Source of the DNA: an uncultured Bacteroidales bacterium
GTDB taxonomy: Bacteria; Bacteroidota; Bacteroidia; Bacteroidales; Paludibacteraceae
DNA length: 54,122 nucleotides
Reading direction: 5' to 3'
Assembly (NCBI GenBank): GCA_903911085.1
Contig: CAIWCC010000080.1
Coordinates: forward strand, 1 to 54,122
Below, piece after piece: positions 11,860 to 48,812 of this stretch (within the stretch, counting starts at the first letter, position 1; the number at the start of each line of letters is the position of its first letter). The translations under genes were made by a program, and so were the position numbers. The notes beneath the pieces were generated by a model. That model was not told the DNA's origin, made no database searches, and worked only from the letters and a program-made list of their open reading frames with translations.

Positions 11860-11924
11860 CAAATATATCGCTTTGACTAAGTCTTGATGTTTACTATTTT
11901 ACCAATTTCTTTAATTATTGTAAC
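11860..11924 (-). promoter_or_regulatory. Operator A plus -7 box, upstream of the 8656-11784 gene
   Basis: The -7 box TATATTTG (minus strand; CAAATATA at 11860-11867) lies 76 bp before the start codon. Exactly 22 bp further upstream begins a 35-bp element (11890-11924) shared with three other PUL promoters. On the plus strand it contains half-sites ACTATTTTACC (11893-11903) and ATTATTGTAAC (11914-11924) with a 21-bp period. No TTTG -33 box is present, which suggests activator dependence. The rest of the 11785-12095 gap holds only the GH2 terminator. Confidence 0.75.
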
Positions 11925-12020
11925 GCATCATTCTAATACTATATATTTATACTATTAGTGAGTGAGTTGCGCCCCAAAAATTGCAAATATTACAACGAGA
12001 TTTCAAATCCATTATTCGCA

Positions 12021-12058
12021 AAAAAAAGCCTCAACTACAAACTGTAATTGAGGCTTTT
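12021..12058 (-). terminator. Terminator of the glycoside hydrolase operon
   Basis: A 12-bp stem, GCCTCAACTACA / TGTAATTGAGGC (one mismatch, 3-nt loop), is followed on the minus strand by a T-run (AAAAAAA at 12021-12027). It lies 38 bp past the GH2 stop and closes the six-gene operon. Confidence 0.88.
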
Positions 12059-12095
12059 CATAATATAAACCTTGTTTACAAACATCCAAAATATA

Positions 12096-14525
12096 TTATT
12101 CAACCGATTGAATTTTAACGACTGCATCTTTCAACCAAGGTGCAGCAAACTTAACGCTTATATTACCAACTTGACCGTTTGTCTGAATATAAGCCAGCAA
12201 TCTGCCATTATAAACGCGTTGTACATTGTCGGAATAGTTTCCCATATCTGAGTTATTGCTGGCTTCGAGCCCAAGCAACTTTGCAGGACCTTCAATGGTG
12301 CAGGTAACTTCATCTTCCGAAATCATTACGGGAATGCCATCTTTGTCAACTACCTGAACTACAACCTGCGCCAATCCTCTGTCTTTTTTTATAAGAGTCA
12401 AATCGGAGATAGCGGTAATGGCTTGTGGTCTACCGGACGATTGTATCGCAAATTGGCACACTGGCAGGTTTTCATTATTCATTCCCACCACTTCCAGTTT
12501 TCCTTTGGCGTAAGGTATATCCCAATAAATAACACCCGTATTGTCGTCGAGCGTTTTAATTTCGCCGACTTGATTCCCGTTCAATACCAACTTGGATTTC
12601 GGGGTGTTGGTATAACAGACTACACGAATGGTTTCGCCCGATTCGTAATTCCAAATTGGCCAGGCATCCGTCGACAAGAAATTCTTATCGGCTGGCTGTG
12701 GGTACGTTCCGATATAAGTAACCGGCTTTGTGCTCCATAAAGCCTGGCGGAAATGACCGCGTGGTTTAAGGAAACCGCCAAAATCGAGAAAACCTGTATA
12801 GAATCCGCGTGACGGCCATTCGCCTGATTCGCCGAGGTAATCAATCCCCGTCCATATAAATTGCCCAAAAATATAATCGTTATCACGCACCGCCTTCCAT
12901 GACTCCATGCTGTGACCATTTTCACTGCCAAAAATAACACGCTTTGGATATTTAGCGTGATCCTGTGTATATCGGTCTTCGGTATAATTATAGCCTGTAA
13001 TGTCTAACACATAGGGGTATTCGGTTTCGTTGGACATAACTACTCCGGCCAGAGCAGCTGTAACAGGGCGCGAAGTATCAAGGCTGCGTACAATAGTGGA
13101 CAATCGTTTTGAAATTCCGCTCAAACGCTCAGCTTTAGGGCTATTAGGCAAATAGCCACCATGCATTGGCTGATTAATGCTCGTTCCATCAAGAATTGGG
13201 TGAGTATAGGGATCGTTTGGATAATCTACCTCGTTGCCTATGCTCCACATAACAATAGAAGCATGATTTCTGTCGCGCAAAACCATATCAGCCAAATCTT
13301 TATCACTCCATTCGTTGAAAAAATCTGCCGAACCCTGAAATTCCGGAGTTCCCACGTTCCATCCGGTTATCCACTTACGTTTCGGAAATTCCCACTCATC
13401 AAATGCCTCATCCATAACGAGCAGCCCTATTTCGTCGCACAATTCGTAAATATCTGACGCTTGTGGATTATGACTCAGGCGAATGGCATTGCAACCCATT
13501 TCTTTTAAGTTGTTTAATCGTCGTTTCCACACTTCGCGAGGCACAGCAGAGCCTAAACAGCCGGCATCATGATGAATACAAACACCTTTCATTTTGGTAA
13601 AAACATTGTTCAATGCAAAACCTTTGTTGGCATCGAATGTTAGTGTGCGAAGTCCTAAATTTTGCTCATTTTGGTCAATAATTTTTCCATTTTGCTTCAC
13701 GACGGTTTTAACAGAGTAAAGTGTTGGGTTTTCTAATGACCACCGTTTTGGATTATTGACGGTAAGCAATTGCGAAATAATGGTTTTTTTGCCCACTTCT
13801 GTTTTCAGCTTTTTGGAAACAGATGCAATAATTTTTCCGCTTTGCGTATCCATAATTTCGTTCAACACCTGAACTTCCGTAGCGATTTTTGATTCGTTAT
13901 TGATGGTCGATTCAACAGACACAACCGCTTTTTTATCTGTAATACTGGTTGCTTTGAAATACACGCCCCACAAATCGAGATGTACCGGCGAAGCAGTTAC
14001 TAAATACGCATCCCGATAGATACCTGAACCAGAATACCAACGTGAATCACGTTCTCTGGAATGGTCGACCCGAACTGACAATACATTTTTTTCGCCGAAT
14101 TTCAAATAAGGAGTCAAATCATACATAAATGAAATATATCCATTGGGGCGTTTACCAACAGAATTTCCGTTGATAAATACTTCGCTGCGATTATAAACAC
14201 CTTCAAAATAAACAAATACTTTATTGTTTTTTTCTGATGCGGGAACAATAAAAGTCTTTCGATACCAACCAATACCGCCCGGAAGATATCCCTGGCAACT
14301 GGCTTTATCCGGACTGTAGACTCCTTTCACGCTCCAATCATGTGGTAAATCGAGGGATTGCCATTTGGAGTCGTCTAATGTGGGATTAGCACCATCCTTT
14401 ACATCGGCAAGTGTAAATCGCCAATCATTATTAAACAATATGGCATTACCAAACTGAGGCTTAGCCGAACTGAATATAGTGGCTAGAAATAAAAATACGG
14501 TTGTGAGAATTAATAATCGTTTCAT
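12096..14525 (-). CDS. GH2 glycoside hydrolase, probable beta-galactosidase
   Basis: Retaining glycosidase of family GH2. A signal peptide (about 1-22) precedes the jelly-roll sugar-binding domain (GGIGWYRKTF, FINGNSVGKRPNGY), an Ig-like domain (about 190-300) and the TIM barrel (about 300-600). The acid/base is Glu432 in MWSIGNEVDYP and the nucleophile is Glu535 in FGSENGH. A DUF4982-like region and a further Ig-like domain complete the 809 residues. There is no lipobox and no T9SS tail, so the periplasm is expected. It is the last gene of the enzyme operon, 33 bp after GH106. Beta-galactosidase fits this GH2 type best. Beta-glucuronidase or another exo-activity is possible. Confidence 0.85.
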   Translation of the reverse strand: MKRLLILTTVFLFLATIFSSAKPQFGNAILFNNDWRFTLADVKDGANPTLDDSKWQSLDLPHDWSVKGVYSPDKASCQGYLPGGIGWYRKTFIVPASEKNNKVFVYFEGVYNRSEVFINGNSVGKRPNGYISFMYDLTPYLKFGEKNVLSVRVDHSRERDSRWYSGSGIYRDAYLVTASPVHLDLWGVYFKATSITDKKAVVSVESTINNESKIATEVQVLNEIMDTQSGKIIASVSKKLKTEVGKKTIISQLLTVNNPKRWSLENPTLYSVKTVVKQNGKIIDQNEQNLGLRTLTFDANKGFALNNVFTKMKGVCIHHDAGCLGSAVPREVWKRRLNNLKEMGCNAIRLSHNPQASDIYELCDEIGLLVMDEAFDEWEFPKRKWITGWNVGTPEFQGSADFFNEWSDKDLADMVLRDRNHASIVMWSIGNEVDYPNDPYTHPILDGTSINQPMHGGYLPNSPKAERLSGISKRLSTIVRSLDTSRPVTAALAGVVMSNETEYPYVLDITGYNYTEDRYTQDHAKYPKRVIFGSENGHSMESWKAVRDNDYIFGQFIWTGIDYLGESGEWPSRGFYTGFLDFGGFLKPRGHFRQALWSTKPVTYIGTYPQPADKNFLSTDAWPIWNYESGETIRVVCYTNTPKSKLVLNGNQVGEIKTLDDNTGVIYWDIPYAKGKLEVVGMNNENLPVCQFAIQSSGRPQAITAISDLTLIKKDRGLAQVVVQVVDKDGIPVMISEDEVTCTIEGPAKLLGLEASNNSDMGNYSDNVQRVYNGRLLAYIQTNGQVGNISVKFAAPWLKDAVVKIQSVE

Positions 14526-14558
14526 ATTCGTTATTTATATATTTATCATCAATTTCTA

Positions 14559-17500
14559 TTAAAACTCTAAAAATCGTATCGGTATTTCCTTCTTAACACT
14601 TCCAGAGCTATACATTAATCTGAGTGCTTCTCCACTAATATTATCAAAGTAATCTACTCTGATTGAGTGCTTTCCTAGCGTAAGTTCACTGCTACCTACT
14701 TTTTCTATTTCGCCATGAGAGCCATCGTTGTCGATAATCAGTTTGCCATCGATATACAGTTTACTACCATCATCCGAAAGCAGATAAAATGTATAGTTAC
14801 CTGTATTGGGAATTGAAATAGAACCATTAAATTTTATGCCAAAATGATCTTCGCGTCCTTTTATTGCAGCAAGGTCAAAACCAATTGATTTTCCTTTTTT
14901 CAGTGGTGTTAGATTTTCCAAATCGGATGTTTTTGTTATTTCTCCCTCATAATATTCGTAGTTTAATCCGTTAATTTTGGGGTCAAAAGCAGCTACTTCG
15001 AGTTGCGAAACGTCACTGGGTTGCTTGCCTTTTTCAAACGCTTTGGCTTTGACAATTGTATACTCAGTCAATTCAAAAGGTTTGGAATAAATCGCCGACT
15101 TTTCGGTAGGCGTTGTACCATCTATTGTGTAATGTATAGTGGCATTAGCGGTTAATGTTGTGAGTGTCACCATAGCTTTTTCAGGTTTTGAAATCACTTG
15201 CTTATCAACAGAAATGACAACTTTTTGAACATAAGGTTTGGGGTCGTCAATTTGCAAAGTAACAGGGCCAATAAGTCCCGATGACAGTAAAGGCGCATTG
15301 GCATCAGGTGCTGTGGTGGCGTTTGTAGTGCGTTTTTCGGCTGGCAAAGCAGCATCACCCACCAAGCGGTTATTCCATGTGTTGGTTATCTCTATTTCGA
15401 GAACATTATTTTTCTTTTTCAGGAATTTAGAAATTTCCACCATGTGAGGTTCAGCCCACACCAACCCTAATGCTTGACCATTCAGCTTTACTTCGGCCAA
15501 TGAATTAAAAGCACCTAAATTGAGATACACAGCCTTCTTATTATTGAAACTTGGGGCATTGAATATTTTACGATAACGAGCCGTTCCGCTGTAATACTTA
15601 ATACCGGCTTCGGGACGTTTTGTCCAGTCTTCGAGCTTCTCAAAAACCACCGATTCGGGTGCTCCCTGTTTTTTATCAAAACCTACCGTCCACGCATCAA
15701 CAAGTTCTCCAATTGTTTTTTTACGAACGAAATTGATTGGATTTGCATTGACAGTAGTGGCTTTTTTTTGAAAAACAATAAAATAAGACTCACGAGCAGC
15801 AAATTCCAAGGGTACAATGGTTTTACCATTTTCAATTTTAAAATCGGTTAAATCACGTAATTCTTTAGTTACCGGATTCCAAAGCTCTGGCTGCAAACCA
15901 GTGACTCTGAACGATGGCGAAAATTCATCCATTTGATCTTTCTGGTTTGAGATGTAATAAATTTCGGCATCGGCGGCCGAACGGTGTATCCATGGAAATG
16001 ATTTGGCATCGATATTACCAATATCAGGAATAAGATTCAAGTCATTGAAAACCGCTGTCAACTCTACTCCGTTGTATATTTTCCCTTTGCCAACTGCTAT
16101 GCTCTTCGTTTGTATGCCATCGCAATTTTGCCACAGTTCGTGCGCCATTTTTTTCACTTGCTCATCGCAGGCTGGATAATTTTGGAGACTTGGCGACCTG
16201 GTTGGAGCTGGCCCTACCACAATGCCTCCATCGAAAATCAATTGTTTCAATTTACTTAACAGGGCAGGACGCATGGTGTTTTGCGGCGGTAATACCAACA
16301 CTTTGTACGACATACCATCGGGTAATACAAAACGACCATTTTTGATGTGCATTTTTTCAATTACTTCGGCATTTACATAATCAAAATTGTATCCATCGGG
16401 CAATTGTGGATTACGGATTCCGGTCATTTTAGGCGCATCTTCGCCCGTGAAATAAGCCACATCCGCCACATATTTTCCTTGTTGAAGCATATAATGCGTA
16501 CGGCGCATGTAGTCCATCCATTCTTTTGATTGGTAAAACCAGGTGTTGTGGCGATTAAATTCCACCCCAAACCAGGCGTTTATTCCGGGTATTTTATCTT
16601 CGTAAGGTTGGTGAATGTACACGTGCATCACAAAATGATTGATGCCTTTGGTAGCAGCCCAGTCGCCACGTTTTTTCAAACTCCATGGCTCCCAGTTCCA
16701 CATAGGACCACCTGAAGTAAATGCCTCGGCATGAACCACATTTTTGCCGTAACCATGCGCTGCCGACGATGCTGCGCGAAGTTCCAGCCCTTCGGGTTCG
16801 TCACCTGTCCAAAACTCGCCTCCTATTTCGTCACTTTGTCCGCCATATTGCAAAAACTCGCCCGGATAACCCCAGTGTCCGTAGTTTTCTAACCACAGTT
16901 TCAAGCCATATTCATTGGCTTTTTGGCGTAATCCACCTACGTAATGATAGGAAATACGGTCGGCAATAATGCGTCGTAAATCCCATAGAAAGCGGTCGGA
17001 CATGTCGGCACTACCCACTACAAGTCCCGAAATTACAGGCAGAAAAGGCGTTGGGTCGTAACCGAACTGTTTTTCAAAATCGGCAGCCATGCCGTCGGTC
17101 CAGTTTTGCGCACCCGTTTCGTAACTATCAGCCACTATGTGTTTCAGCGCTGTTCGTTCACTTTCGGGCAGTCGTTTAATTATTTTTCCAATATAAGCAT
17201 CAAAATGACCAGCAACCCATTGCTTATTCATTTTGTCGATTTCCAAGCCGGTAGCTTCCACCGATGCAGGAGCATTTTTTTGTCCTGTCGATGTCATTCC
17301 AATGCGTTGAATCATCCATTCGCCGACAGGCACATCCCATTCCAGTGTGCCATCAGTTTTCATTTTCGATGAGATATTTATCACCTTTTGCGGTTGAATA
17401 GTCAGCGTATTATCAGTCATTTCAGCTTGCGGTTTCCACAAATAAGCATCCCAAAGCGGTGCCGGTGTTGGCCATAGTTTTGCCAGTTGTTTTTCGGCAA

Positions 17501-18455
17501 AACGTTCGGTGCGAGCTGCACCTGAAAGTGCAATTTCGGTAAATCCTGCTTTTCCGTTTATATTGGAGAAAATCAACCGAAATTGCGTGGAAGAAGTAGC
17601 TGGAAATGTTTCGCAAATTGGTGCAAAAGGAATAAAACCAACACTGGTACTGTTATTTGTACGTTCAATACCGAATGTTTTGAGCGTTTTAAATGTACCA
17701 TCACTTTGTTTGTACTGCAACTCGCATTGTGCACTAAAACTGCTGTGGGATGGGTAAAGCGTTAAACTCCGCACTGTATAAGGTTCCAATTGAGTGAAAT
17801 TCAGCTTAAATGTATTTGACAGTGAGGCTTGTAAATATGTTTCTATCGTCTGATTGCCATCAAACCATTTAATTGAATTCTCAGTTTCGGGTGAGCAAGT
17901 AATTGCAGAATTGGCATTCGACAAATAATTGGCATCATTCACTGGTGCGCAATACGCTATAACCGCCACATCCTGAAACTGTGCGGTAGGTGCGGTGAGT
18001 TTTACCGACAGTTTTTGTGGTCCTTTCACCTTGAGCTCCGACATGGTAAGATAGCGCATCGAGTTTTCGGGTTTATTCCACGGCCCGCCAGACTGACTCC
18101 AACCCGGCGAGTTGAATAAGCCAATGTTAACACCAGTGCGTTTCCCCTCACGAATGGCGTGATCTATCATAAGAAACCATTCTTCGGTAAGAGCTTTTAC
18201 CTTTCCTTTTTGCTTTATTTCATCAATATTTCCAATCAATGCTTCGCCAATTCCCACTTTAGCCATTGCTTCGAGGTCTTTGGTAATGCCTTCTTTGGAA
18301 ATATGGTCGCTAATCCAGTACCAATACACCCAGGGCTTGGTTGAGGCCGGTGGATTTTTGAAATTTGTTGATAAAGGATCTGTTTGTGCTTTTACCGAGG
18401 AAAAAACACTTAGAAAGAAAATAATCAGGGCTGATTTTAAGAATATTTTGCTCAT
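14559..18455 (-). CDS. GH106-type alpha-L-rhamnosidase with a C-terminal PA14 domain
   Basis: Predicted to remove terminal alpha-L-rhamnose. The N-terminus (signal peptide about 1-23, then KPWVYWYWISDHISKEGITK) and the following barrel are characteristic of GH106; the core runs to about residue 900. After it comes a GH2-like galactose-binding fold (LGAFNSLAEVKLNGQALGLV) that closes the GH106 unit. Next is a chitobiase-C-like Ig domain (ATIHYTIDGTTPTEKSA), and finally a PA14 domain (about 1160-1298, LLSDDGSKLYIDGKLIIDND). PA14 domains in glycosidases commonly bind glycans. The length of 1298 residues is long because of this added domain. No T9SS tail is present, so a periplasmic location is inferred. 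Confidence 0.85.
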   Translation of the reverse strand: MSKIFLKSALIIFFLSVFSSVKAQTDPLSTNFKNPPASTKPWVYWYWISDHISKEGITKDLEAMAKVGIGEALIGNIDEIKQKGKVKALTEEWFLMIDHAIREGKRTGVNIGLFNSPGWSQSGGPWNKPENSMRYLTMSELKVKGPQKLSVKLTAPTAQFQDVAVIAYCAPVNDANYLSNANSAITCSPETENSIKWFDGNQTIETYLQASLSNTFKLNFTQLEPYTVRSLTLYPSHSSFSAQCELQYKQSDGTFKTLKTFGIERTNNSTSVGFIPFAPICETFPATSSTQFRLIFSNINGKAGFTEIALSGAARTERFAEKQLAKLWPTPAPLWDAYLWKPQAEMTDNTLTIQPQKVINISSKMKTDGTLEWDVPVGEWMIQRIGMTSTGQKNAPASVEATGLEIDKMNKQWVAGHFDAYIGKIIKRLPESERTALKHIVADSYETGAQNWTDGMAADFEKQFGYDPTPFLPVISGLVVGSADMSDRFLWDLRRIIADRISYHYVGGLRQKANEYGLKLWLENYGHWGYPGEFLQYGGQSDEIGGEFWTGDEPEGLELRAASSAAHGYGKNVVHAEAFTSGGPMWNWEPWSLKKRGDWAATKGINHFVMHVYIHQPYEDKIPGINAWFGVEFNRHNTWFYQSKEWMDYMRRTHYMLQQGKYVADVAYFTGEDAPKMTGIRNPQLPDGYNFDYVNAEVIEKMHIKNGRFVLPDGMSYKVLVLPPQNTMRPALLSKLKQLIFDGGIVVGPAPTRSPSLQNYPACDEQVKKMAHELWQNCDGIQTKSIAVGKGKIYNGVELTAVFNDLNLIPDIGNIDAKSFPWIHRSAADAEIYYISNQKDQMDEFSPSFRVTGLQPELWNPVTKELRDLTDFKIENGKTIVPLEFAARESYFIVFQKKATTVNANPINFVRKKTIGELVDAWTVGFDKKQGAPESVVFEKLEDWTKRPEAGIKYYSGTARYRKIFNAPSFNNKKAVYLNLGAFNSLAEVKLNGQALGLVWAEPHMVEISKFLKKKNNVLEIEITNTWNNRLVGDAALPAEKRTTNATTAPDANAPLLSSGLIGPVTLQIDDPKPYVQKVVISVDKQVISKPEKAMVTLTTLTANATIHYTIDGTTPTEKSAIYSKPFELTEYTIVKAKAFEKGKQPSDVSQLEVAAFDPKINGLNYEYYEGEITKTSDLENLTPLKKGKSIGFDLAAIKGREDHFGIKFNGSISIPNTGNYTFYLLSDDGSKLYIDGKLIIDNDGSHGEIEKVGSSELTLGKHSIRVDYFDNISGEALRLMYSSGSVKKEIPIRFLEF

Positions 18456-18508
18456 GTAATATTTATTATATATCTTATATTAAGCGATTTATAACTCTGT
18501 ATAACAAT

Positions 18509-18919
18509 CTAAATTACTATTGTTTTAAGTAAAGTGGTTTTGTTATATTTCGAACTTATTTTCACCAAATAAACTCCGGGTGTTTTTACATTAAAATTCG
18601 ATTTGCCATTAATAATTGTTTTCAATTGGATAGTAAGTCCGCTAATATTCATTAGTTCGGCTTTATAACCATCTTCGGCATATACAATCACGTTTCGATT
18701 ATTTACATTTACATAATAAGATTTTGATAATGTGTTATTTACATTTGAATTAATATCTATAATTTTCCGAGGCGTAGAATCATTGCTCAGCGTGATAGCA
18801 TCAATATAAAAGGTTGATATTTCCTCCGTTTTAATTGAAGCTGAACGTTGAGCAGAAAGATTATTTTGGACTAAAGCAAGTGCCAAAAAAGCTAAAATGA
18901 TACTGATATTGAGTTTCAT
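18509..18919 (-). CDS. 136-residue relic: signal peptide + end of the PUL module + T9SS tail
   Basis: An intact small reading frame that looks like a larger gene with its middle deleted. Residues 1-23 are a signal peptide. The mature part then begins almost at once with FYIDAITLSNDSTPRK, the exact C-terminal signature of the recurrent module of this locus (compare FYLDAIAINGNADPR in 42274-43725). A T9SS sorting domain follows directly (VYAEDGYKAELMNISG, PGVYLVKIS). The binding face of the module and any catalytic domain are absent. It sits in the operon between GH78 (33 bp) and GH106 (53 bp). It could be a non-functional stub or a secreted minimal peptide. I see no frameshift inside it. Confidence 0.7.
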   Translation of the reverse strand: MKLNISIILAFLALALVQNNLSAQRSASIKTEEISTFYIDAITLSNDSTPRKIIDINSNVNNTLSKSYYVNVNNRNVIVYAEDGYKAELMNISGLTIQLKTIINGKSNFNVKTPGVYLVKISSKYNKTTLLKTIVI

Positions 18920-18952
18920 ATTTGGATGTTTTTTAATTATAAGAATAAATTT

Positions 18953-21900
18953 TTACAAGTCGATTACTTGCGAACCTTCTTTTAACTGTACCTCTTGTTT
19001 ATTCCATATCAATGTTCCAGTTAAACCAACAGGCAAAGTTATGACTGCATGAAGTTTGCCTAACGTAGATTTGGTAAGATTAACGGTAATTAAGCCCAGC
19101 TTATGTGGCACTTTGCATTGAATCGTCGTTAATGAGCCCATTTGGGGTTTGACAAGAACACTTGTAAATCCATCGTCTTTGGGTTGTACCCCTGCAACAT
19201 ACTGCGACATAAGTGTAAGCGGACCGCCTGCCCAGCCGTGGTTGTATGAACCACCACCATACGTGGCAGAACCTACTCCCCAACCTTCCCACAACGTAGT
19301 TAAATTACTTTCAACCATAGCTTTATAACGTGCTTTCATGCGATTTATACCTCCTATGGCATCGTTCATCACAAAATAGGCTTCGAGAATATATTTTTCG
19401 ATATATGGTCCGGCAAAATACGTAGCGTCCAACAAGGTTTTGATAGATGTCCATTTCGTTTCGTCGGCAAGTCCGGCAACCACTGCCAACCCATTTCCTC
19501 TATCATCAGTTGGTCCAATATACAATGGCGAGCGGTATTCTTTACCTGTCCAAAATGTTTTATTAAAAGCATCTTTTAGCACTTGTCGTTGTCGTTCATA
19601 TTTTGCTGCATCCTCTGTATATCCTTGCAAAGTGGCCATTTTCGACAAAGATTCAAGTGCCATATAATACCATGCATTTTCGCATAAAGGCATATCAATA
19701 TTGCTTCCCCAATCTGTCCAATCCCAAAACAACCCATTTCCTCTTTCGGCTAAACCGGGGCGATGGACTACCAGTCCTTGCGAATCGAGTTTCCATAAAT
19801 CCATGTATCGTGCAATTTTTGGATAGGCATATTCCACAAAGGATTTATCGCCGGTGTATCGGTAATAATTCCAAAATCCAAATTTGCCTATACTAGCCAA
19901 TGTTTGCTGTGGAAGTTCGTTAACCCATTTTCCCGGTATGGGCGAATAAATGGAGGCATCGGGTCGTTGCCATTCCAGCAAGTTCGACATGGCTTTTTTA
20001 ATTGCTTTCACTCCAATGCTATCGCAGGTATAAAAAATTTCACCCAGAATAATCGTAGCATCACCCCACCATTGAGCGCGCTCGCGATCAGGGTCTTGTA
20101 TGGCATCGCGCATATTTAAGTCCATGGTATTCATCGCCTTTCTCCAAAGTGAATTTAAAAACGCATCATCACTTTGAAACAATCCAATGTGTTCGCTGGG
20201 GAATGAAGTTCGGCGATAGCCCAGTTTAAGTACTTTTATACCTGCCGGTATCGAATATTGCACTTTGTGCCCGTTCATATAACCAAAAGTTTCAAATTCC
20301 TGTACACCGGCACGTGTAACATATTCGGTACGGACATTGTATTCACTGCCTCCGTTGTAATTATCGGTGCGAATATCAATTGTAACTCCCGCTGTGGGTG
20401 CATCAATTTGAAGATAGGGTGTAATGGTGTAATTTACAGGAAGATCCATTTCTACAACAGTGCCATTGGATACAAAAGGATAGGTTAAGGTATTGGTATA
20501 ATCTACTACACCTGAATTTTTCCATTGCGGGAATGGTCGTTTCCAAAGTTTATTCCAGGGAGCACCGCCAGCAATTGCAACTTCCACCGATGCCGTAAAG
20601 TTGGCTTCGTTGTATGTAGGCAACATCCAGCCGTCATAGTTAGCAGTTGAGGTGTAACGAATATTGTATTCTGGCAAACGTGAATTAGGTTTTGGATCGC
20701 CGGTTTCGCCAAAAGCATCACATTTAGTATTTTTCCATGTTTTATCCGAAAGCAATGAAACTTGCGAATTTTGTGCTTCGAAAAGAAAACCTGCTGTTCC
20801 ACTATTTTTGTGATTATAGCCATCGCGACCCCAATACCAAAGTAAAGCCGCAATGGTATTTTCGCCTTGCTTCAGATAGCTGGTAATATCAACCTCATCA
20901 TAATAGGTGTCGGTTGGAGTAGGGCCCCGTTTCAACTGCCCTTCAAAAACTACTAGTTCTCCATTGATGTAAAGCCAGTATTTTGAATCGGCAGCTATTT
21001 TGGCAACCAGTTTTTCGCTCAGCGGATTGTCAAGCGTAATTTTTTTACGGAACATCAACCATTGATTAGGCGTACTCGGGCTTTTTGCGCTCGTAATCCA
21101 TTTCGTTTTGGCATTAAATGTTCCATTTGTTTCGTTTGAAATCCATTGCGCACTGTTTGGATTATTTTGGATATTACGATAATATACAGCTATTTCACTT
21201 ACAAATTTTAAGGGTGAAACATCTAAAACAAAATCCTTCCATTCTCCAGCTTCATTCGCTGTAACTTTTTTAATAATTTCAACTGAACTTCCGCCAATAT
21301 CTTTGGCTAAAAGTTTAACATTAACACCCGATGCACCTATTTGCCCAGTAGGAATAAAGACCAAGGTGTGTAAATAACCAGGCAATGTGCCACCTACGGG
21401 AATAGCCCCTTTTAATTCAATTTTGGGACCTTCTTGCCAATTGAATGCAAGGCTGCTTTTATTGAATTTCAAGACCTTACCTTTATTATTTACTACGCTC
21501 TGAGTAAATGGATTAGCTAGTATTTCGTTTGAATTTCCGGTATATTGATTGTCAATCTTCAATATCCATTTGTTGGTTTCATTTTCGTCCTCAAAATTCA
21601 GATTAAACCCAGTACCATCTATAATATCTTTTATTCTTGGCTGTGAATTATCGCTAAATTCAAACTGATCGAAGAGATACTTTGCTTCCCCCCAACCAGA
21701 TCGAGGGTCATCCCAATTATCACTAAGTATCATCTCAATATAATTCACTTTAGTATTTAAATGGTTAACACCAAGGTCTATAACAACATCTTCCCACACG
21801 CCATCCTGTGTAAGTTTACCTCTAAAAGCAATTGATTCAATTCCATTGATACCTATAGAAAAATTTTTGGGCTGAATAGATCTGTAACACATTATTTTCA

Positions 21901-22207: not shown

Positions 22208-22251
22208 AAGAAATAATTTAATGATTTTAGTAATTAGAGGTATAATGGTTT

Positions 22252-24519: not shown

Positions 24520-24576
24520 AATTAATAAATTGCTGATTTTTTAATAGTATTTTTGGAAATAAGTATTCAATAAATA

Positions 24577-24636
24577 ATTATATATTTTACGAAAGCAATA
24601 TTCGGAGAACCAGACTTGTAACTAAATCCTTGTAAC
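24577..24636. other. Half-site-like sequences inside the GH operon (degenerate operator?)
   Basis: In the 130-bp gap between the two GH43-like genes, ATATTTTAC (24582-24590) and two copies of TTGTAAC (24616-24622 and 24630-24636) resemble the operator half-sites. Their spacing does not follow the 21-bp rule, and no TAnnTTTG box sits at the expected distance. This may be a decayed or alternative site, or AT-rich coincidence. Confidence 0.25.
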
Positions 24637-24649
24637 TACTTAATGATTC

Positions 24650-26432: not shown

Positions 26433-26497
26433 CAAAGTTATTACTAAAATGGTTTCGTAACTTTAAGTCATGTACAAATTTCTTCAATTATTGTAAC
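26433..26497 (-). promoter_or_regulatory. Operator C plus -7 box, enzyme operon promoter
   Basis: The -7 box TAACTTTG on the minus strand (CAAAGTTA at 26433-26440) lies 38 bp before the start of the first GH43-like gene. The 35-bp element (26463-26497) begins exactly 22 bp beyond it. The distal half-site ATTATTGTAAC (26487-26497) is perfect; the proximal one, AGTCATGTACA (26466-26476), is weaker. The 21-nt core AATTTCTT[T/C]AATTATTGTAAC differs from that of operator A at one position. The region is shared with the divergent regulator promoter. Confidence 0.75.
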
Positions 26498-33132: not shown

Positions 33133-33144
33133 AATTTCCTCGAT

Positions 33145-36171: not shown

Positions 36172-36204
36172 AATAATTTGATTTTCGAGTGTGATTGAAT
36201 AAGG

Positions 36205-37914: not shown

Positions 37915-37926
37915 ATTTCCAAGATA

Positions 37927-40953: not shown

Positions 40954-40974
40954 AAAATTGCTCTTTTACCGTTG

Positions 40975-41670: not shown

Positions 41671-41687
41671 TATTTTCGAATTGAGGG

Positions 41688-42191
41688 TTATTTTATGTCG
41701 ATATTTGCAACACGTGTGAATATTAAAACGGTTTTGGAGATAGTTCCATCCGTTTTAAAATCAGTACGTTCCAAATTTAATGTTGATGCATCGGTGGTTA
41801 CTTTCCAACTTGCGGGCATATCAATAGCTAGATTTAACAATCCGGAATTATAGCTCCAACCCGAACGTTTTACTATGGTCTTGGCTTTTACAGATGCAGC
41901 AGTTGAATCGCAAAGTAGGCAAATATTGTTGGAGTTAATCTGAAAAAGTAAACGGGTACTATCTTTTGAGGAAGTTGCTCCATTTATAATGCGGGTAGTT
42001 TGATTCCAAGTACCTACAAAACTATTAATTGTGTCGGCATCTGTAGTATCCGCTTTACAAGCCGAAAAAAATAATGCAATTACGGTAGGAAAAAAGGCAT
42101 AAGCCATTATGCGAAAGAGTTTTCTTTCGATGGGATTTTTCATAAGTACACCTGATTTTTTTATAGAGTTGAATAAATCTTTATGTTTCAT
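41688..42191 (-). CDS. Small lipocalin-like lipoprotein, possible start at 42143
   Basis: 167 residues as drawn, with lipobox ALFFSACKAD. The mature part opens with FVGTWNQTTRIINGA, again the Gly-x-Trp lipocalin-like pattern of its neighbour, so the two are probably distant paralogues. The start at 42143 (MKNPIERKLF...) is likely better: it gives a normal signal peptide of about 30 residues and has an AGGTG sequence a few bases upstream, whereas the first ATG adds 16 charged residues ahead of the signal. First gene after the 42223-42257 hairpin. Confidence 0.6.
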   Translation of the reverse strand: MKHKDLFNSIKKSGVLMKNPIERKLFRIMAYAFFPTVIALFFSACKADTTDADTINSFVGTWNQTTRIINGATSSKDSTRLLFQINSNNICLLCDSTAASVKAKTIVKRSGWSYNSGLLNLAIDMPASWKVTTDASTLNLERTDFKTDGTISKTVLIFTRVANIDIK

Positions 42192-42222
42192 GTATTATGT
42201 TTACAATTGAAAAATAGAGATT

Positions 42223-42257
42223 AATAAAGGGAGAGAGCTCATCTCTCTCCCTTTATT
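42223..42257 (-). terminator. Strong hairpin inside the uptake operon (terminator or attenuator)
   Basis: A perfect 14-bp stem, AATAAAGGGAGAGA / TCTCTCCCTTTATT, with a 7-nt loop follows the 42274-43725 stop by 16 bp. On the minus strand it is followed by AATCTCTATTTTT. No TAnnTTTG promoter is visible between it and the lipoprotein start, so the SusCD genes may depend on read-through past it. It could also protect the upstream mRNA end. Confidence 0.75.
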
Positions 42258-42273
42258 ATTGGGAATGAAATAC

Positions 42274-43725
42274 TTATTTTATAAGCACTTTTGAAATTGA
42301 GTTTGCACCTGTTAGCGACAATGTGTTCACTAAATAAACTCCACTTTGAGTAACTGGAATTGTAGTATTAGTGGTTACTGAAGTTATTTTAGTAACCAAT
42401 TTACCTATTGAATTGTAAACACTGATTTGTGAAGCAGTACCTTCTAAACGAATATTTTTATCTTTTGCAAATACTTTTATTCCGTTGTCTTTCACTGTGG
42501 TTACACTTGTAGGTGCCACCACTGCTGTACGAGGATCGGCATTTCCATTAATGGCAATTGCATCAAGATAAAACACACCTGCTGGCGAATTAATTCTTAC
42601 ATCCGCAGCATCTCTTCTTAGGTCGAAACGTACCGTGAATTCTTGAACATAACCCAATGAGCTTACATCAAGCACTAAATCTACCCAAGTGCCTTTGTCT
42701 GAAACCCAATATTTCAATGCATCACCGCTGTCGAGTTCTTTTCCAGTATAGTCTTTGGCATTTAATTGAACTACATAATAATCAGGGGTAAGCGGACTAA
42801 TTGGCATATCGGCAATATTTATCATAGCGTGCAAATAAGTTGGAACACCTCCTACACCTACTGGAAGAATACCAGGCATTACCACCCGTACACTTTGCCA
42901 CCATGAAGCATTGGCACTTTTGTTGAATTTAAGTACCGAAGTTGAGTTCAACACAGCCGTTTGAGTAGTGAATGGATTTGCAACAATGGCCGAAGTATTT
43001 TCAGGATGTTGTAAATCGAGATTTTTCACCCATTTAGCGTATGAAGCTGTATTGCCAAAGAATAGTGACATTTGAGTATCGGTAAGAATAGTAACTCCGC
43101 GTGGAAGTGGATTATTATTCAATGCAATTTCGTCGAAATAATAATTGGTAACAGGTTCTGCTGCTCCACCCCAGTTCATATCCATCAAAACAGTTATTTG
43201 CTTTAATGCCTCAGCGTTATCCATAAACCATTTCAAATCCACCACCACATCTTCCCATTTACCCGCAGCGGCAAGGTTCATATCCCAGCGTTTAGTGCCT
43301 TTGTCAGCATCCCAAGGCGTTTCCCGATTGATGTTTACACTAAATCCCTGATTCAAATTTTCGCGATACATATAAATATGTAAGTAGCGGTTTTCAGCAG
43401 TGATAGTGATTGGTGCAGCAACATCAAGATTCAAAAAATCGGGCCACCAACTATGACCTTTAAGTGATGTCAGTTGTAACACTTTGTTTGTTGTATTCAC
43501 ACCGGTTTTGTCTGGGTTATCAGTAATTCGGGTAAAAGCAGGTGCATCTACAGTTCCAAAATTTACATATCTGGCAGCGTCTTTTATTTCACCCATTGCC
43601 CAGCCTACCATGTCCATACGTGAAAAAGCTTCGGGAGTTGTTTCGCCAGTAAACAACTTGGTGTCAGCTGCATAAATCAGTGAATAGCAGGTTAATGCTA
43701 AAGAAAGTAAAATTGTTTTTTTCAT
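42274..43725 (-). CDS. Secreted two-module protein with T9SS tail, first gene of the uptake operon
   Basis: No catalytic domain. The signal peptide (about 1-19) is followed by module 1 (about 20-211; NRYLHIYMYREN, KWEDVVVDLKWF, YYFDEIALNNNPLPR), module 2 (about 218-400; WVDLVLDVSSLGY, FYLDAIAINGNADPR) and a T9SS sorting domain (about 415-483; ISVYNSIGKLV, QSGVYLVNT). The leader and module 1 are near-duplicates of those of the 8656-11784 product. A secreted or surface glycan-binding protein is the natural guess, since it is co-regulated with SusC/D, but binding is not shown by the sequence. Confidence 0.78.
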   Translation of the reverse strand: MKKTILLSLALTCYSLIYAADTKLFTGETTPEAFSRMDMVGWAMGEIKDAARYVNFGTVDAPAFTRITDNPDKTGVNTTNKVLQLTSLKGHSWWPDFLNLDVAAPITITAENRYLHIYMYRENLNQGFSVNINRETPWDADKGTKRWDMNLAAAGKWEDVVVDLKWFMDNAEALKQITVLMDMNWGGAAEPVTNYYFDEIALNNNPLPRGVTILTDTQMSLFFGNTASYAKWVKNLDLQHPENTSAIVANPFTTQTAVLNSTSVLKFNKSANASWWQSVRVVMPGILPVGVGGVPTYLHAMINIADMPISPLTPDYYVVQLNAKDYTGKELDSGDALKYWVSDKGTWVDLVLDVSSLGYVQEFTVRFDLRRDAADVRINSPAGVFYLDAIAINGNADPRTAVVAPTSVTTVKDNGIKVFAKDKNIRLEGTASQISVYNSIGKLVTKITSVTTNTTIPVTQSGVYLVNTLSLTGANSISKVLIK

Positions 43726-43798: not shown

Positions 43799-43863
43799 CA
43801 AAGGTATACCATTCTGCATCTCTGCTCTTCAAGTATTGTAAAAATAGCTTTCAAATTTGTAAC
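43799..43863 (-). promoter_or_regulatory. Operator D plus -7 box, uptake operon promoter
   Basis: The -7 box TACCTTTG on the minus strand (CAAAGGTA at 43799-43806) lies 74 bp before the start at 43725. The 35-bp element (43829-43863) begins exactly 22 bp beyond it. On the plus strand it has half-sites AGTATTGTAAA (43832-43842) and AAATTTGTAAC (43853-43863), again with a 21-bp period. It lies in the 159-bp gap after the GH30 stop, where I see no terminator. Confidence 0.72.
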
Positions 43864-43884
43864 AACAAACATTAAAGTAAAGTT

Positions 43885-46056
43885 TTAAGGTATTAAAATT
43901 CTCTGGCAGAATGCATTATTATTTACTTCGGTACGAACTATGTATATGCCTTTTAATGCTTTAGCCGAAAGTGAGCAAGGTGTATTTTGATTGTTGAATT
44001 TTGATACGCATTGTCCAGCAGTATTGTAAATGGAAATGTTACATTTTTCTTCATTTGTAGAAATAATATGCAATTTTCGATCTTCAACATACACTTTGAA
44101 TAAATTTTGCTTATCATTTATTTCATCAATTGCTGTGGGTTGATTAATAGGAATTACAAAAGTGGCACATGACTCCGAAAGTGCATCGTAAGAAAACGAA
44201 TTGCCTACAACAGTAAGGTAAGTAACAGAATTTTTCACACCAAGCGACGCCAACGCTCGGGTACGAATTTGAGTAACTCTACCTATGCCGGTGAATTTGG
44301 ATAAATCAATTTTGAATTTTTGCGTATATGTTTCTTTGTTATCTACCACCACCACTAGTTCATTGCCATTAGGGCTTAAAGCGGCCAACGAATTGGGTGA
44401 CGAATTGTCGATAATGGTGTAACCAGCTTTAATATATCTGCTGAATTGTGCTCTGATATAATACGAAGCCAGTTTAGAAAATGGCGCATTATTCACGTCG
44501 TACTGACCACCAATTAATGCCCAAAGCGGACTTGTGCCACTGCCAACTATTTGCCAATCGGCCCAAGCAGTACATCTTAAATCACGCACATCGGTAATAA
44601 TTCTGTCTGCCATAATCATAATTATGCTTTCATCAGTTCCACCAATGTTTATAGGTCCCGATTCAGATTGCCATAGTTTTAAATTATATGCCTTTGCCAC
44701 GGCTGCAGTACCACTACGTTGACTACCTCCATAACTATGAACCGAAACTAATTTCAACTTTGACATAATGTCGCCAGCATTTTTATAAGTATTCAATGCA
44801 TTGTAACCAGCATCCAACGAGTTAGCATCATTCGCTGTAATTTGAGAATAAGCTAGCATATTTTTAGCTAACATTTTAGCATATAATTCCCTAATCATAA
44901 CCATTTGGTCGCTTTCCGAGAAATAACATCCCTCCTGATTTCCAAGTGCTTTCCACCATCCACCATCGGGTTCGTTAAATGGCTCAATATAATTGAAAGT
45001 AATACCCAAATTGTCGTGGTAATACTTCACCACTTCAGTCTGATAATCGGCAAAATCATCATACATATCCGATTTTAAATTCGATACATTTCCTTCGGCA
45101 CTACCTGCCGAGCATCCACTACGAGTCATCCAATAAGGTGGTGAGTTAGAAAATGCAACTAATTGAATATCATTTACACCAGCTTTTTCAATGCGCGATG
45201 CAATCAATTGTTGCATTACTTTTCGTTGAGCCGAGTCTTGTCTCCAATCGTATGCTGCTGTCAATGAAGCTTTATAGCCTGGCATATCTCCACCATCGGA
45301 GCGCATGTGCTTATGAGTAGGGTCATCGCCTCCACCAATATTAAACCGAAATATATTCATATTCAATCCATTAACGGGATCTACTATCCAATCGCAAATA
45401 TATTTAATACGGGCATCGGAATACTTTCCCACAATGTTTGCCCACCAACATAGCGAGCCACCCCAACCTTCAATTATTTGGTTTTTGATAGTAGGATCGA
45501 TGGTAATATCTGTACGGGAAATTGAGGCTGGATTATCAGAAAGTGATATTTGGTCTATGTAATAAATTCCAGCCGCATCACCTATTTTAATTGCAATAGT
45601 TTTCAAATTAATACCCGATGTAATAGGCAGCACATAATCAGTCCATGCTCCAGACGTATTTTTCGTTTGCCATACATCGGCACTTTGTGTACCACCGAGG
45701 GGAGTAAAAGTGAGTGCAATACGCGAAGTGGTTGTTTTATACACCATTACATGTAAGTATTGATTGGCAGTAGTAATGGGAGTGGTATTTGCAAATGTTA
45801 CTTCCAAACCAGTCCAGTATTGGTCATTGGCTTGCTTTGTAATTTTATAACACTTGGCGGTGGTGTTTATTGGGTCGGATGTAATTGGATTTGGTGATGA
45901 CCAAACCGTGGCTGCCGTTCCTGCGGTAGAATAATTTAGCCATGAAGTTACAGAAGTTGGAACGGTTGCCGATTCAAAATCGAGCAAAATGGTTTCGGCT
46001 GCCAAAATTGGAACCGCAATAATGATTAAAAGAATGAGAGATAGCGATTTTTTCAT
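43885..46056 (-). CDS. GH30 glycoside hydrolase with N-terminal PUL module and T9SS tail
   Basis: Retaining enzyme of family GH30. Signal peptide (about 1-19), one copy of the recurrent module (about 19-178, ending IYYIDQISLSDNP), the GH30 barrel plus side beta-domain (about 180-640; IIEGWGGSLCWWA at its start), and a T9SS tail (LKGIYIVRTEVNN). The acid/base is Glu362 in PFNEPDGG and the nucleophile is Glu465 in LWQSESGP. The GGSLCWWA entrance resembles GH30 members acting on beta-1,6-galactan (subfamily 5) more than glucosylceramidases or xylanases. That substrate call is tentative. It is co-transcribed with the URO-D-like gene (26-bp gap) and predicted to be extracellular. Confidence 0.83.
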   Translation of the reverse strand: MKKSLSLILLIIIAVPILAAETILLDFESATVPTSVTSWLNYSTAGTAATVWSSPNPITSDPINTTAKCYKITKQANDQYWTGLEVTFANTTPITTANQYLHVMVYKTTTSRIALTFTPLGGTQSADVWQTKNTSGAWTDYVLPITSGINLKTIAIKIGDAAGIYYIDQISLSDNPASISRTDITIDPTIKNQIIEGWGGSLCWWANIVGKYSDARIKYICDWIVDPVNGLNMNIFRFNIGGGDDPTHKHMRSDGGDMPGYKASLTAAYDWRQDSAQRKVMQQLIASRIEKAGVNDIQLVAFSNSPPYWMTRSGCSAGSAEGNVSNLKSDMYDDFADYQTEVVKYYHDNLGITFNYIEPFNEPDGGWWKALGNQEGCYFSESDQMVMIRELYAKMLAKNMLAYSQITANDANSLDAGYNALNTYKNAGDIMSKLKLVSVHSYGGSQRSGTAAVAKAYNLKLWQSESGPINIGGTDESIIMIMADRIITDVRDLRCTAWADWQIVGSGTSPLWALIGGQYDVNNAPFSKLASYYIRAQFSRYIKAGYTIIDNSSPNSLAALSPNGNELVVVVDNKETYTQKFKIDLSKFTGIGRVTQIRTRALASLGVKNSVTYLTVVGNSFSYDALSESCATFVIPINQPTAIDEINDKQNLFKVYVEDRKLHIISTNEEKCNISIYNTAGQCVSKFNNQNTPCSLSAKALKGIYIVRTEVNNNAFCQRILIP

Positions 46057-46082
46057 TTTCTTGGATTTGAATTAAAAAATAA

Positions 46083-47174
46083 TTAACAAACTGAGTTCAA
46101 ATTCTTTACAGCTTCCACAAATGCCATTACATTTTCTACCGGAGTATCGTCTTGAATGTTGTGAGCCGGAGCAATAATATAGCCTCCACCTTTTCCTAAT
46201 ACAGAAGCAATGCGTTTTACTTCCGACTTAATTTGTTCGGGAGTTCCGTTTGGCAAGAGTTCTTGCACACATATTGCTCCAAAAAAATTAATCTTTCCTT
46301 GAAAAAGATTACTAATATTTTCAGCATCCATATCCTTTGCCATTGGTTGTAGAGGATTCATATAATCCAAACCTAAATCTATAAATTTGGGGATAAGCGG
46401 AATAATGGAACCACAAGAATGCCATGCCAATTTTATATTTGGATTAGCCGCTTTAAACGTGGCAAACATTTTTCCAATACGTGGCGCAAAATATCTGTCA
46501 AACATTTCAGGGCTCATTATCAAACTATTCTGCGAACCAAAATCATCTCCAGCCCAAATCATATCCACACCACATTCTATCAATCTGAGCCCCGTTTGAG
46601 TCGCAATATCTGTAACTTTGTCTAACAACACATCCACATAAGGTTCTTCCAGCATCATGTCCATCAGCAGTTTCTCTAAGCCCACCAAGTACCACGAAAT
46701 TTCGTAAATAGCACATTCCAAATCCCCAATTATACCAAAATCATTGCCATACTTGGCAATAGTTTCCTCGGCAAATCTGAATCGTCCTGGCGCATCCACT
46801 TTCGGAAAAGGGTAGTTTTCAATATCTTCTATTGTTTGTGCATGAGCTAATGGATGAATGGCAAATTCATCATATAATCCTACGGTTTTAGTTCCAATGC
46901 CCCATTCGTTAATTGTAATACCATCATCCCGAAGTACAGGTTGCCCATTATCAGGAAAACAAGCTGCTACTCCGATAGCGTCAACACCCATATAAGTAAG
47001 CATATTATTAAACGAAATTCTACTACCTAAAAGTGAAGAAACGGGTTGCTCGTATGGCACGTTAAGGTATGCACTCATTCGTTTAGCTAATTGTGGCACC
47101 ATGCTAATGTAAAGTGGTGGTCTATCTGTTTCTACACCATTCAAAGTATTGATAAAACGTTCTCTGTGTGTCAT
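46083..47174 (-). CDS. URO-D/MtaA-superfamily protein inside the PUL
   Basis: A 363-residue cytoplasmic protein of the uroporphyrinogen decarboxylase superfamily (start MTHRERFINTLNGVETDRPP; DLECAIYEISWYLVGLEKLL; GGGYIIAPAHNIQDDTP). The motif WHSCGS puts His252 and Cys254 where methyltransferases of the MtaA/CmuA branch bind zinc. The second Cys of that site is not obvious: APAHN has His where MtaA has Cys, and there is a Cys in GAICVQ. This makes a methyltransferase or unknown activity likelier than true haem synthesis. There is no corrinoid protein or haem gene nearby. It is the first gene of a two-gene unit with GH30. Function unknown. Confidence 0.7.
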   Translation of the reverse strand: MTHRERFINTLNGVETDRPPLYISMVPQLAKRMSAYLNVPYEQPVSSLLGSRISFNNMLTYMGVDAIGVAACFPDNGQPVLRDDGITINEWGIGTKTVGLYDEFAIHPLAHAQTIEDIENYPFPKVDAPGRFRFAEETIAKYGNDFGIIGDLECAIYEISWYLVGLEKLLMDMMLEEPYVDVLLDKVTDIATQTGLRLIECGVDMIWAGDDFGSQNSLIMSPEMFDRYFAPRIGKMFATFKAANPNIKLAWHSCGSIIPLIPKFIDLGLDYMNPLQPMAKDMDAENISNLFQGKINFFGAICVQELLPNGTPEQIKSEVKRIASVLGKGGGYIIAPAHNIQDDTPVENVMAFVEAVKNLNSVC

Positions 47175-47270
47175 AAATTAGATTTTAATTGATATTTAAG
47201 TGATTGCAAATTTTCATTAGAAAAAAACTAATAAGTATCTCTACTAATTTGAAACAATTAACTCAATCTG

Positions 47271-47278
47271 CAAAGTTA
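47271..47278 (-). promoter_or_regulatory. -7 box of the URO-D/GH30 unit
   Basis: CAAAGTTA on the plus strand reads TAACTTTG on the minus strand, about 97 bp before the start at 47174. The sequence 22 bp upstream of it (47301-47335) does not match the shared operator, so this unit appears to be controlled differently. Confidence 0.45.
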
Positions 47279-47291
47279 ATAGATTATAACG

Positions 47292-47352
47292 AAAAACTGC
47301 TTGCAAAAAAATAATTTAAGTATCCCTTAAATGCTATTTGCAAGCAGTTTTT
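47292..47352. terminator. Long composite hairpin terminator after 47374-48696
   Basis: The outer stem is a perfect 16 bp, AAAAACTGCTTGCAAA / TTTGCAAGCAGTTTTT. The loop contains a second 7-bp stem, ATTTAAG / CTTAAAT. T-runs occur on both strands. It separates the two-module gene from the URO-D/GH30 unit. Confidence 0.85.
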
Positions 47353-47373
47353 TTACCTTTTTTAAGCCCTATG

Positions 47374-48696
47374 TTACTTTACAAGAACTTTAGTGGTTTG
47401 ACTACCCACTTTTACAAAATACAAACCGGCATTATTCACTGCAATAATTTCGTTATTTCGTATTTGTTTGCTGATGATATTTTGACCATTTGCGTTATAA
47501 ATATTTAACTGACTTTCGATACCGGCATTTACAATATTTATCTTGTTATTAGTGGCATAAATTTTTAGCATAGATGAAGGATCTTTTAATACTGTTGCAA
47601 CAGCAGTTCTTGAAGTTGCGCTTCCGTCAATATAAATTTCGTCGAAATAGTAATCGCCTACTGCAGCTCCGTCCCAATGTCCCATTTTAAGAGAAAGCCC
47701 AGAAATATAAGCCAAACCTGACACATCATACACTACATCTTGCCATACATTGGCAGTGGAAATAGTACTCAAACCATCAGAAATAATATTTGTTGCTCCT
47801 TGTCTTACATCTAACGCAATTTTCTGACCATCAACGGGTACCGAAACTAAAATATGTAAATATTTATGTTCAGCATCAATTAGCACAGGGTTAACAAAAC
47901 TGAATGAAAAACCACTCCACCATTGCGGACTAGCTACTATTACCGAGCGTTTACCAACATTGGCTGTTGAGTTTTTTGTATTATTCATTGGGTTTGCAAA
48001 TGGATATGTAACAGGATTATCTGTATTTGCCGAAGTGTTTACACCCGAAATATTGGCTGCAGTACCAGGTTCAAAATCATACAGATTATTTCCGGTTAAG
48101 AACGATGTACCACGTGGTAGTGGATTGTTGCTAAGAATTATCTCGTCGAAATTGTAGGTACCACCAGAACCTCCTCCCCAACCATTCAAGTCGGGATTCA
48201 TGCCAAATGACGAAAGTTGAACGTTATTTGTAATTAAATAATTTAAATCAACTACAATATCTTGCCATGTATTATTTGCAGTTAAATTTCCATCAAAACG
48301 TGTACTATTCACAATTCCATTCATGTTTCCAAGATTGATATTGATAGAATAGCCTCCGCCAGCTATATTGGAAGTGCGATACATGATATGTAAATATCGA
48401 TTAGCATTAGTAATTGTTGTTGGCGTAGTTAGCGTAAATACCGAAAGATTATCCCACCAATTTACCCCTGAAGATTCAACCAAGTTTAACGAAGTTGATG
48501 TGGTATTAATGCCGATTGAACCTGGGTTTGTACTGGGTGCATAGCTTGCAATGTAAGGTGCCCCGGGCCAAGCCATTGAATATGTACCTAGTTGAGTGGT
48601 TCCTGTTTCGAAATTAAAAAGCACAGTTTGCGCATTTAAGGCACTCACAAATAAGAAAAAAGATAGAAATAAGCCAAAAGTAAAATTTGTTTTCAT
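47374..48696 (-). CDS. Secreted two-module protein with T9SS tail
   Basis: 440 residues with no catalytic domain. Signal peptide (about 1-22); module 1 (about 23-197; NRYLHIMYRTSN, WQDIVVDLNYL, YNFDEIILSNNPLPRG); module 2 (about 203-365; HKYLHILVSVPVDGQKI, WQDVVYDVSGL, DYYFDEIYIDGSATSR); T9SS tail (about 370-440; LNIYNANGQNII, NNAGLYFVKVG). Module 2 is closest to module 2 of 8656-11784 (both with FEPGTAAN and TYPFANPM). It is a single-gene unit between operator B and a strong terminator. Its job is probably glycan capture at the surface, by analogy only. Confidence 0.78.
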   Translation of the reverse strand: MKTNFTFGLFLSFFLFVSALNAQTVLFNFETGTTQLGTYSMAWPGAPYIASYAPSTNPGSIGINTTSTSLNLVESSGVNWWDNLSVFTLTTPTTITNANRYLHIMYRTSNIAGGGYSININLGNMNGIVNSTRFDGNLTANNTWQDIVVDLNYLITNNVQLSSFGMNPDLNGWGGGSGGTYNFDEIILSNNPLPRGTSFLTGNNLYDFEPGTAANISGVNTSANTDNPVTYPFANPMNNTKNSTANVGKRSVIVASPQWWSGFSFSFVNPVLIDAEHKYLHILVSVPVDGQKIALDVRQGATNIISDGLSTISTANVWQDVVYDVSGLAYISGLSLKMGHWDGAAVGDYYFDEIYIDGSATSRTAVATVLKDPSSMLKIYATNNKINIVNAGIESQLNIYNANGQNIISKQIRNNEIIAVNNAGLYFVKVGSQTTKVLVK

Positions 48697-48747
48697 GATA
48701 AATGTTTTAATTTTTTAATAATAATAGTTGTAGAACAATTCACGATG

Positions 48748-48812
48748 CAAAAGTAAGCTATCAGTAAAAGCACAATATCTACTATTTTACCAAACACTAT
48801 AATCATTGTAAC
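48748..48812 (-). promoter_or_regulatory. Operator B plus -7 box, upstream of the 47374-48696 gene
   Basis: The -7 box TACTTTTG on the minus strand (CAAAAGTA at 48748-48755) lies 52 bp before the start. The 35-bp element (48778-48812) begins exactly 22 bp beyond it. The half-sites on the plus strand are ACTATTTTACC (48781-48791), identical to operator A, and ATCATTGTAAC (48802-48812), with a 21-bp period. Confidence 0.75.

Follow-up and report, generated by a model that had tools for sequence, protein, structure and literature searches.

Results

Organisation of the locus

The DNA analysed here, a stretch of 54,122 nucleotides from an uncultured Bacteroidales bacterium that we refer to as the window, is a polysaccharide utilisation locus (PUL) according to the Pfam and NCBIfam scans by which its gene families were assigned. 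It contains a complete HTCS gene, which is divergent from promoter C, and minus-strand genes behind the four promoters A to D (Table 1), the limits of these transcription units being judged from gene order. The enzyme set suggests that the substrate is a plant glycan rich in rhamnose, galactose and arabinose. Promoters, SusCD pairs and HTCSs are all in keeping with a member of the Bacteroidota.

The proteins behind A, B and D (8656-11784, 47374-48696 and 42274-43725) have a region of about 330-400 aa in common, as seen by BLAST of homologues, and the same region matches parts of the GH78-like rhamnosidase (18953-22207) and of the second GH43 protein (22252-24519). Pfam gave no match for the 483-aa protein of D and the 440-aa protein of B, and only Flg_new_2 for the 1042-aa protein behind A. 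The structural model of the 483-aa protein is mostly beta (pLDDT 73.7, pTM 0.60) and its best match among solved structures is a tandem CBM22 (4xup; E 9.5e-9), with a query TM of only 0.25; it is perhaps a tandem carbohydrate-binding protein. The T9SS sorting domain TIGR04183 occurs here in a SusCD-type PUL, above the cut-off in 8656-11784 and below it in 47374-48696. Also within the PUL is a URO-D/MtaA-like protein (46083-47174), which scores below the NCBIfam cut-offs and has an 84% identical match in the PUL of the related genome G046. Both of the tandem SusC-SusD pairs (30831-43725) are retained in G005, G046, G031 and G033.

Table 1. Putative operators, -7 boxes and genes of the locus, numbered from the first letter of the window
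Feature	Position	Strand	Remarks
Operator A	11890..11924	-	half-sites 11893-11903 (proximal), 11914-11924 (distal)
Operator B	48778..48812	-	half-sites 48781-48791 (proximal), 48802-48812 (distal)
Operator C	26463..26497	-	half-sites 26466-26476 (proximal), 26487-26497 (distal)
Operator D	43829..43863	-	half-sites 43832-43842 (proximal), 43853-43863 (distal)
-7 box of promoter A, TATATTTG	11860..11867	-	75 bp from ATG
-7 box of promoter B, TACTTTTG	48748..48755	-	51 bp from ATG
-7 box of promoter C, TAACTTTG	26433..26440	-	37 bp from ATG
-7 box of promoter D, TACCTTTG	43799..43806	-	73 bp from ATG
1042-aa protein	8656..11784	-	T9SS sorting domain; putative target of A
Putative operon of C	12096..26395	-	GH43, GH43, GH78-like rhamnosidase, 136-aa ORF, GH106, GH2
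HTCS, 1373 aa	26592..30713	+	Reg_prop sensor, Y_Y_Y, HisKA, HATPase_c, receiver, AraC-type HTH_18
Putative operon of D	30831..43725	-	483-aa protein, two small ORFs, SusC-SusD, SusC-SusD, 185-aa ORF
Putative operon of B	43885..48696	-	440-aa protein, URO-D/MtaA-like protein, GH30

Four elements at a fixed distance from the -7 box

A preliminary description of this DNA had proposed that four promoters of the PUL carry a 35-bp direct-repeat element. The elements are present at all four positions given there and, read on the minus strand, are oriented toward the minus-strand genes. The reported count of 18 invariant columns out of 35 was reproduced, and the best star alignment over the four 300-bp upstream regions arrives at the same number; 100 Markov-randomised sets aligned in this way averaged 11.7 invariant columns and never exceeded 13. 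The box expected of a primary-sigma promoter, TAnnTTTG, is found in all four promoters and begins in each of them exactly 22 bp after the element, as had been claimed. The summed identity of the half-sites is 28/44 at the proposed period of 21 bp and 9-19 of 44 at 12 other lags (15 to 27). Seven of the eight half-sites fit the suggested form A-n-n-n-T-T/A-n-T-A-n-n, from which the proximal half of C deviates.

Pairwise, the four promoters are identical at 22-29 of 35 positions in the element, at 5-8 of 22 in the spacer and at 14-23 of 60 in the 60 bp upstream. The spacer is thus fixed in length and variable in its letters, which distinguishes selection on geometry from simple copying. When matrices were built from three of the sites, the left-out site ranked 4th of 108,176 positions for all four, the rank expected if only the three training sites outscore it. 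A loose scan of the window (at most 3 mismatches) was less clear than the other tests of the element: it gave four matches, three with 0 mismatches and one with 1, against 1.33 expected, and 6 of 100 shuffles reached at least four.

The whole genome (6,251,348 bases, 269 contigs, 97.89% complete) was scanned with a 17-letter pattern over 35 bp, allowing up to 3 mismatches. Only the four PUL sites match with 0-1 mismatch; the one mismatch of site B falls on pattern column 14, a letter that varies among the sites. The full scan at up to 3 mismatches returned 212 places compared with 242 for the reversed-pattern control. The expectation that good matches would be confined to the PUL was therefore largely borne out, since the four sites are the sole matches of this quality in 6.25 Mb. 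The statement that the HTCS is the only regulator holds within the window; the genome contains 23 Y_Y_Y matches in all, that is, about 22 further HTCS candidates.

Sites in relatives follow the HTCS orthologue

Among 298 genomes searched, HTCS orthologues with 55-82% identity were found in 10 of the 48 genomes of the genus, including that of the window, and beyond the genus in G153 of the same family (58%) and in G242 of another family (42%). A matrix made from the four window sites alone gave 11 distinct hits above a score of 14 in the stretches from relatives. All 11 have a TTTG in register, eight as TAnnTTTG and three with G in place of the first T. Iteration of the matrix led to 21 hits including the four of the window, and 19 of the 21 are in register, a proportion somewhat favoured by the procedure, as in-register hits were retained at a lower score.

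We then ran a fixed-spacing pattern of 65 bp, consisting of element, 22-bp spacer and box, on the 48 genus genomes. It matches 29 places, 27 of them in the 10 orthologue genomes, each of which has a hit, and two in the 38 others; run backward as a control, it matches one place. A site conserved together with the orthologous HTCS is hence found in 10/10 vs 2/38 genomes, with a pattern trained on 16 of its 29 places, from 8 of the 10 orthologue genomes. Of the 13 places outside the training set, orthologue genomes hold 11 (binomial p 1.6e-6, calculated from genome numbers), one of which, G020:C68, is identical in its letters to a training site. Both orthologue genomes without a training site, G032 and G034, are hit as well (Fisher p 0.008). 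The two hits in other genomes have 2 mismatches each and lie before a sulfatase gene (G042) and near a sugar transferase gene (G028). Changing the spacing to 21 or 23 bp reduced the 29 hits to 2 and 5, respectively, and five of these seven are sites of the 22-bp pattern shifted by one base. Genome G020 carries one and the same 65-bp promoter on two contigs (G020:C68 and G020:C143; L237 and L246), possibly an assembly duplicate.

The next ORF could be read at 24 of the 25 places outside the window. By best hit, it is a homologue of the window's 483-aa protein (five cases), 440-aa protein (four), GH30 (two), GH43 (one) or GH106 (one), and others encode three GH2, one GH38, one acetyl xylan esterase domain, one sulfatase and one sugar transferase. 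Four of the 24, one of which (L237) had no Pfam scan, have neither a known family nor a homologue in the window PUL. These assignments come from Pfam scans for 20 of the 24 and from BLAST only for the remaining four; in three cases the ORF starts more than 240 bp past the box, and a nearer start may have been missed.

A site directly upstream of the HTCS gene and pointing away from it is found in G007, G046, G031 and G005 and at the 42% relative in G242. In G032, the 40 kb around the HTCS gene contain no in-register site, but the contig does carry one at a distance of about 46 kb. Among nine orthologues (the two of G033 were left out), the DNA-binding domains are 77-91% identical, with both helix-turn-helix stretches nearly invariant; the receiver is about as conserved (74-93%), and the sensor shows 53-84% identity.

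A tendency towards a 21-bp register at other HTCS loci

A first look at 62 stretches around other HTCSs, with 141 promoters, placed lag 21 on top. The enlarged set, which includes the first one, comprises 124 stretches, 120 with an HTCS match; nearly all are from Bacteroidota by title or kinship, one is from Balneola, and three belong to the 42% relative G242. As promoters we counted all TAnnTTTG boxes located no more than 350 bp upstream of an ORF, which gave 359 promoters at 107 loci. Twenty stretches without an HTCS match served as control, 19 of them with promoters (93 in total).

Self-comparison of the 359 promoters at lags 12-30 showed that the eight best of 836 cells all have lag 21, with the first half-site starting at -64 to -53 of the box (-57 in the window). 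Counted per locus, 73 of 107 show a positive excess at lag 21 (Wilcoxon p 1e-5). The control set, which is smaller and not wholly flat, has no lag-21 cell among its eight best, and its excess is positive in 12 of 19 loci (p 0.13). At a fixed place, 33 of the 359 promoters reach at least 9 of 16 identities at lag 21, compared with 8-12 at eight other lags (17 to 25); in the control these numbers are 3 of 93 and 0-4. Taking the best promoter per locus, 28 of 107 reach 9/16 at lag 21 and 5-12 do so at the other lags from 14 to 29. None of 300 Markov resamplings attains the observed value at lag 21 (z 5.4), and the control has a z of -0.3.

Promoters of the same locus tend to share their half-sites, if modestly in bulk. 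Of the same-locus pairs, 16/537 reach 15/26 identities at slide 0 (0.030 vs 0.004 between loci) and 0-5 pairs do so at slides of 1 to 5, the top pairs including possible divergent promoters or repeats that share DNA, such as the L062 pair. Mean half-site identity is 0.310 within and 0.291 between loci, but it fails to single out the half-sites since the spacer rises about as much (0.311 vs 0.296); they stand out in the upper tail and in the slide control alone.

The other HTCS candidates in the window's own genome (81 promoters in 19 of 21 stretches, one of which, L210, is also in the 124-stretch set) gave ten best cells that all have lag 21, with the first half from -66 to -57 and with sequences that differ per locus. 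Among the strong promoters of this set lag 21 is barely ahead, with 8 vs 7 at lag 22 and 0-5 at the others. Promoters with SusC as the first gene, a small set of 17, have the highest mean at lag 21 (6.76 of 16, next 5.47). A half-site common to the phylum did not emerge: in the 33 strongest lag-21 promoters no base exceeds 0.58 over the stretch and none exceeds 0.55 in the halves. From this weak consensus the half-sites look regulator-specific. The 21-bp-repeat register is thus a statistical tendency of the HTCS class, perhaps less exact than in the window regulon, and it is diluted, since many of the promoters may not be targets of an HTCS and some boxes are chance matches.

The -33 region

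The preliminary description had noted that a clear -33 TTTG is missing. Indeed, the interval 18-28 bp upstream of each box is free of TTTG; boxes B and D are preceded by a TTGT and a TTGA at distances of 20 and 26 bp, respectively. The missing TTTG cannot be used as a sign of dependence on an activator, because the 93 control promoters do not show an excess of TTTG there either (0.12 at 18-28 bp, 0.14 at 40-50 bp upstream). Moreover, the idea that the HTCS site replaces the -33 box is opposed by the frequency of TTG, which is if anything commoner there in HTCS-locus promoters: in the 342 that do not precede SusC it is 0.37 at 18-28 bp and 0.25 at 40-50 bp upstream, compared with 0.25 and 0.23 in the control. 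In view of these counts, the -33 clause was left out of our reading of the general architecture.

Discussion

Overall, our data indicate that the four elements are very probably direct-repeat operators at which the HTCS of the window activates four transcription units. This rests on the sites themselves, their period and fixed spacing, their genome-wide exclusivity, their conservation and co-occurrence with the HTCS orthologue, the conserved DNA-binding domain of the orthologues and the glycan genes downstream. The regulon of four units that had been proposed earlier is thereby supported. Points against this reading are the weak proximal half of C, the single hits in two genomes that lack the orthologue, the distance between site and HTCS gene in G032, and the downstream ORFs that have neither a family nor a window homologue.

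An improbable alternative is that the sites belong to another regulator, i.e. another HTCS or an AraC-type protein, and that the HTCS gene is merely nearby. The many further HTCS candidates in the genome speak for it. However, the sites track the HTCS orthologue across the genus, as far as a pattern partly trained on 8 of the 10 orthologue genomes can tell, and five genomes have a site immediately before the HTCS gene, facing away from it. Less probable still is that the promoters are alike through copying together with duplicated genes, the element itself being free of selection. The first genes of D and B do have homologues whose similarity extends to the gene of A, over about 330-400 aa, but we rejected promoter duplication because spacers and flanks are poorly conserved while the spacer length is constant; besides, the gene behind C encodes a GH43, and like elements precede GH2, GH30, GH38 and GH106 genes in relatives. 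Equally remote is the view that the element is part of the promoter itself, e.g. an alternative sigma-factor or UP-type element, which would account for the fixed distance to the -7 box, but this box is the ordinary primary-sigma TAnnTTTG, the element is a direct repeat of 21-bp period with four good matches in 6.25 Mb, and other HTCS loci have different sequences in a similar register.

Activation by the HTCS, the reading that we prefer, agrees with what has been described for this class of regulators. According to the available text of Ravcheev et al. 2013 (PMC3878776), motifs were predicted for 16 of 36 HTCSs in Bacteroides thetaiotaomicron; they are direct repeats averaging 21 bp apart, located upstream of PUL operons, and a dimer was proposed with its monomers on one side of the DNA. 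The window has the same two-site direct repeat about 21 bp apart, upstream of PUL operons and beside an HTCS gene with an AraC-type domain. The organism and the regulator are different ones, and the likeness to the motifs in that text is one of spacing and arrangement. The SusR-type operators covered there are likewise direct repeats upstream of glycan-use operons, but with 67 or 77 bp between the sites and for a different regulator family. That text does not tie the motif to a -7 box or give a fixed distance. HTCS regulator fragments or their variants bind PUL promoters in EMSA (PMC11253607; PMC5061871), and according to a supplementary legend of the latter its promoter regions carry marks for predicted sites and -7 boxes. 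In the openly accessible texts searched on HTCS sites and promoters, we found no fixed distance between HTCS site and box. Hence 21-bp direct-repeat HTCS operators are already described as a class (PMC3878776), and the register to the -7 box is the addition made here. For the primary sigma factor of Bacteroidota, PMC7366714 gives TAnnTTTG at -7 and TTTG at about -33.

The arrangement also resembles a classical activator. When AraC occupies araI1-araI2, the half-sites are 21 bp, or two helix turns, apart and overlap with the -35 element. The window shares with this case the AraC-type domain and two half-sites two helix turns apart near the upstream promoter element, and by geometry alone it resembles class II activation, the proximal half-site standing at a fixed place beside that element. 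It differs in that the domain is fused to a receiver, a kinase and a periplasmic sensor and that the promoter is of the Bacteroidota type. At araBAD, the AraC dimer on these two proximal half-sites recruits the polymerase (PMC4760080).

By analogy, a dimer of the AraC-type C-terminal domain would bind both half-sites (approximately GTTACAATA and TTGGTAAAATA), which are directly repeated; being two helix turns apart, these would lie on the same face of the DNA. The proximal half ends about 22-25 bp upstream of TAnnTTTG, close to the expected place of the -33 element, and the bound dimer would fix the geometry in which RNA polymerase carrying the primary sigma factor sits, much as AraC does at araBAD. 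If the periplasmic propeller domain senses an oligosaccharide, all four transcription units would be switched on together, and the co-induced set would comprise two SusCD pairs, enzymes of the GH2, GH30, GH43, GH78-like and GH106 types and secreted proteins. We infer binding, control by phosphorylation, polymerase contact, operon limits and start sites from the sites and from comparison.

The survey of other loci leads us to lean towards a wider rule, with more reserve than for the window itself: HTCS promoters throughout the Bacteroidota may carry a 21-bp direct repeat with regulator-specific letters that is locked to the -7 box, at about -64 to -25 from the first T of TAnnTTTG.

Bacteroidota rely on HTCSs as a main switch for the use of glycans. 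If the general rule is true, an HTCS regulon and its start sites could be read from raw sequence, and activation by HTCSs would use a single rigid geometry of the polymerase, similar to that of AraC. With a position rule anchored at the -7 box, the search for motifs would come down to examining one defined place in each promoter, and candidates for regulons, start sites and glycan-inducible promoters could be named from the sequence. In the PUL of the window, four transcription units make up the probable regulon so defined.
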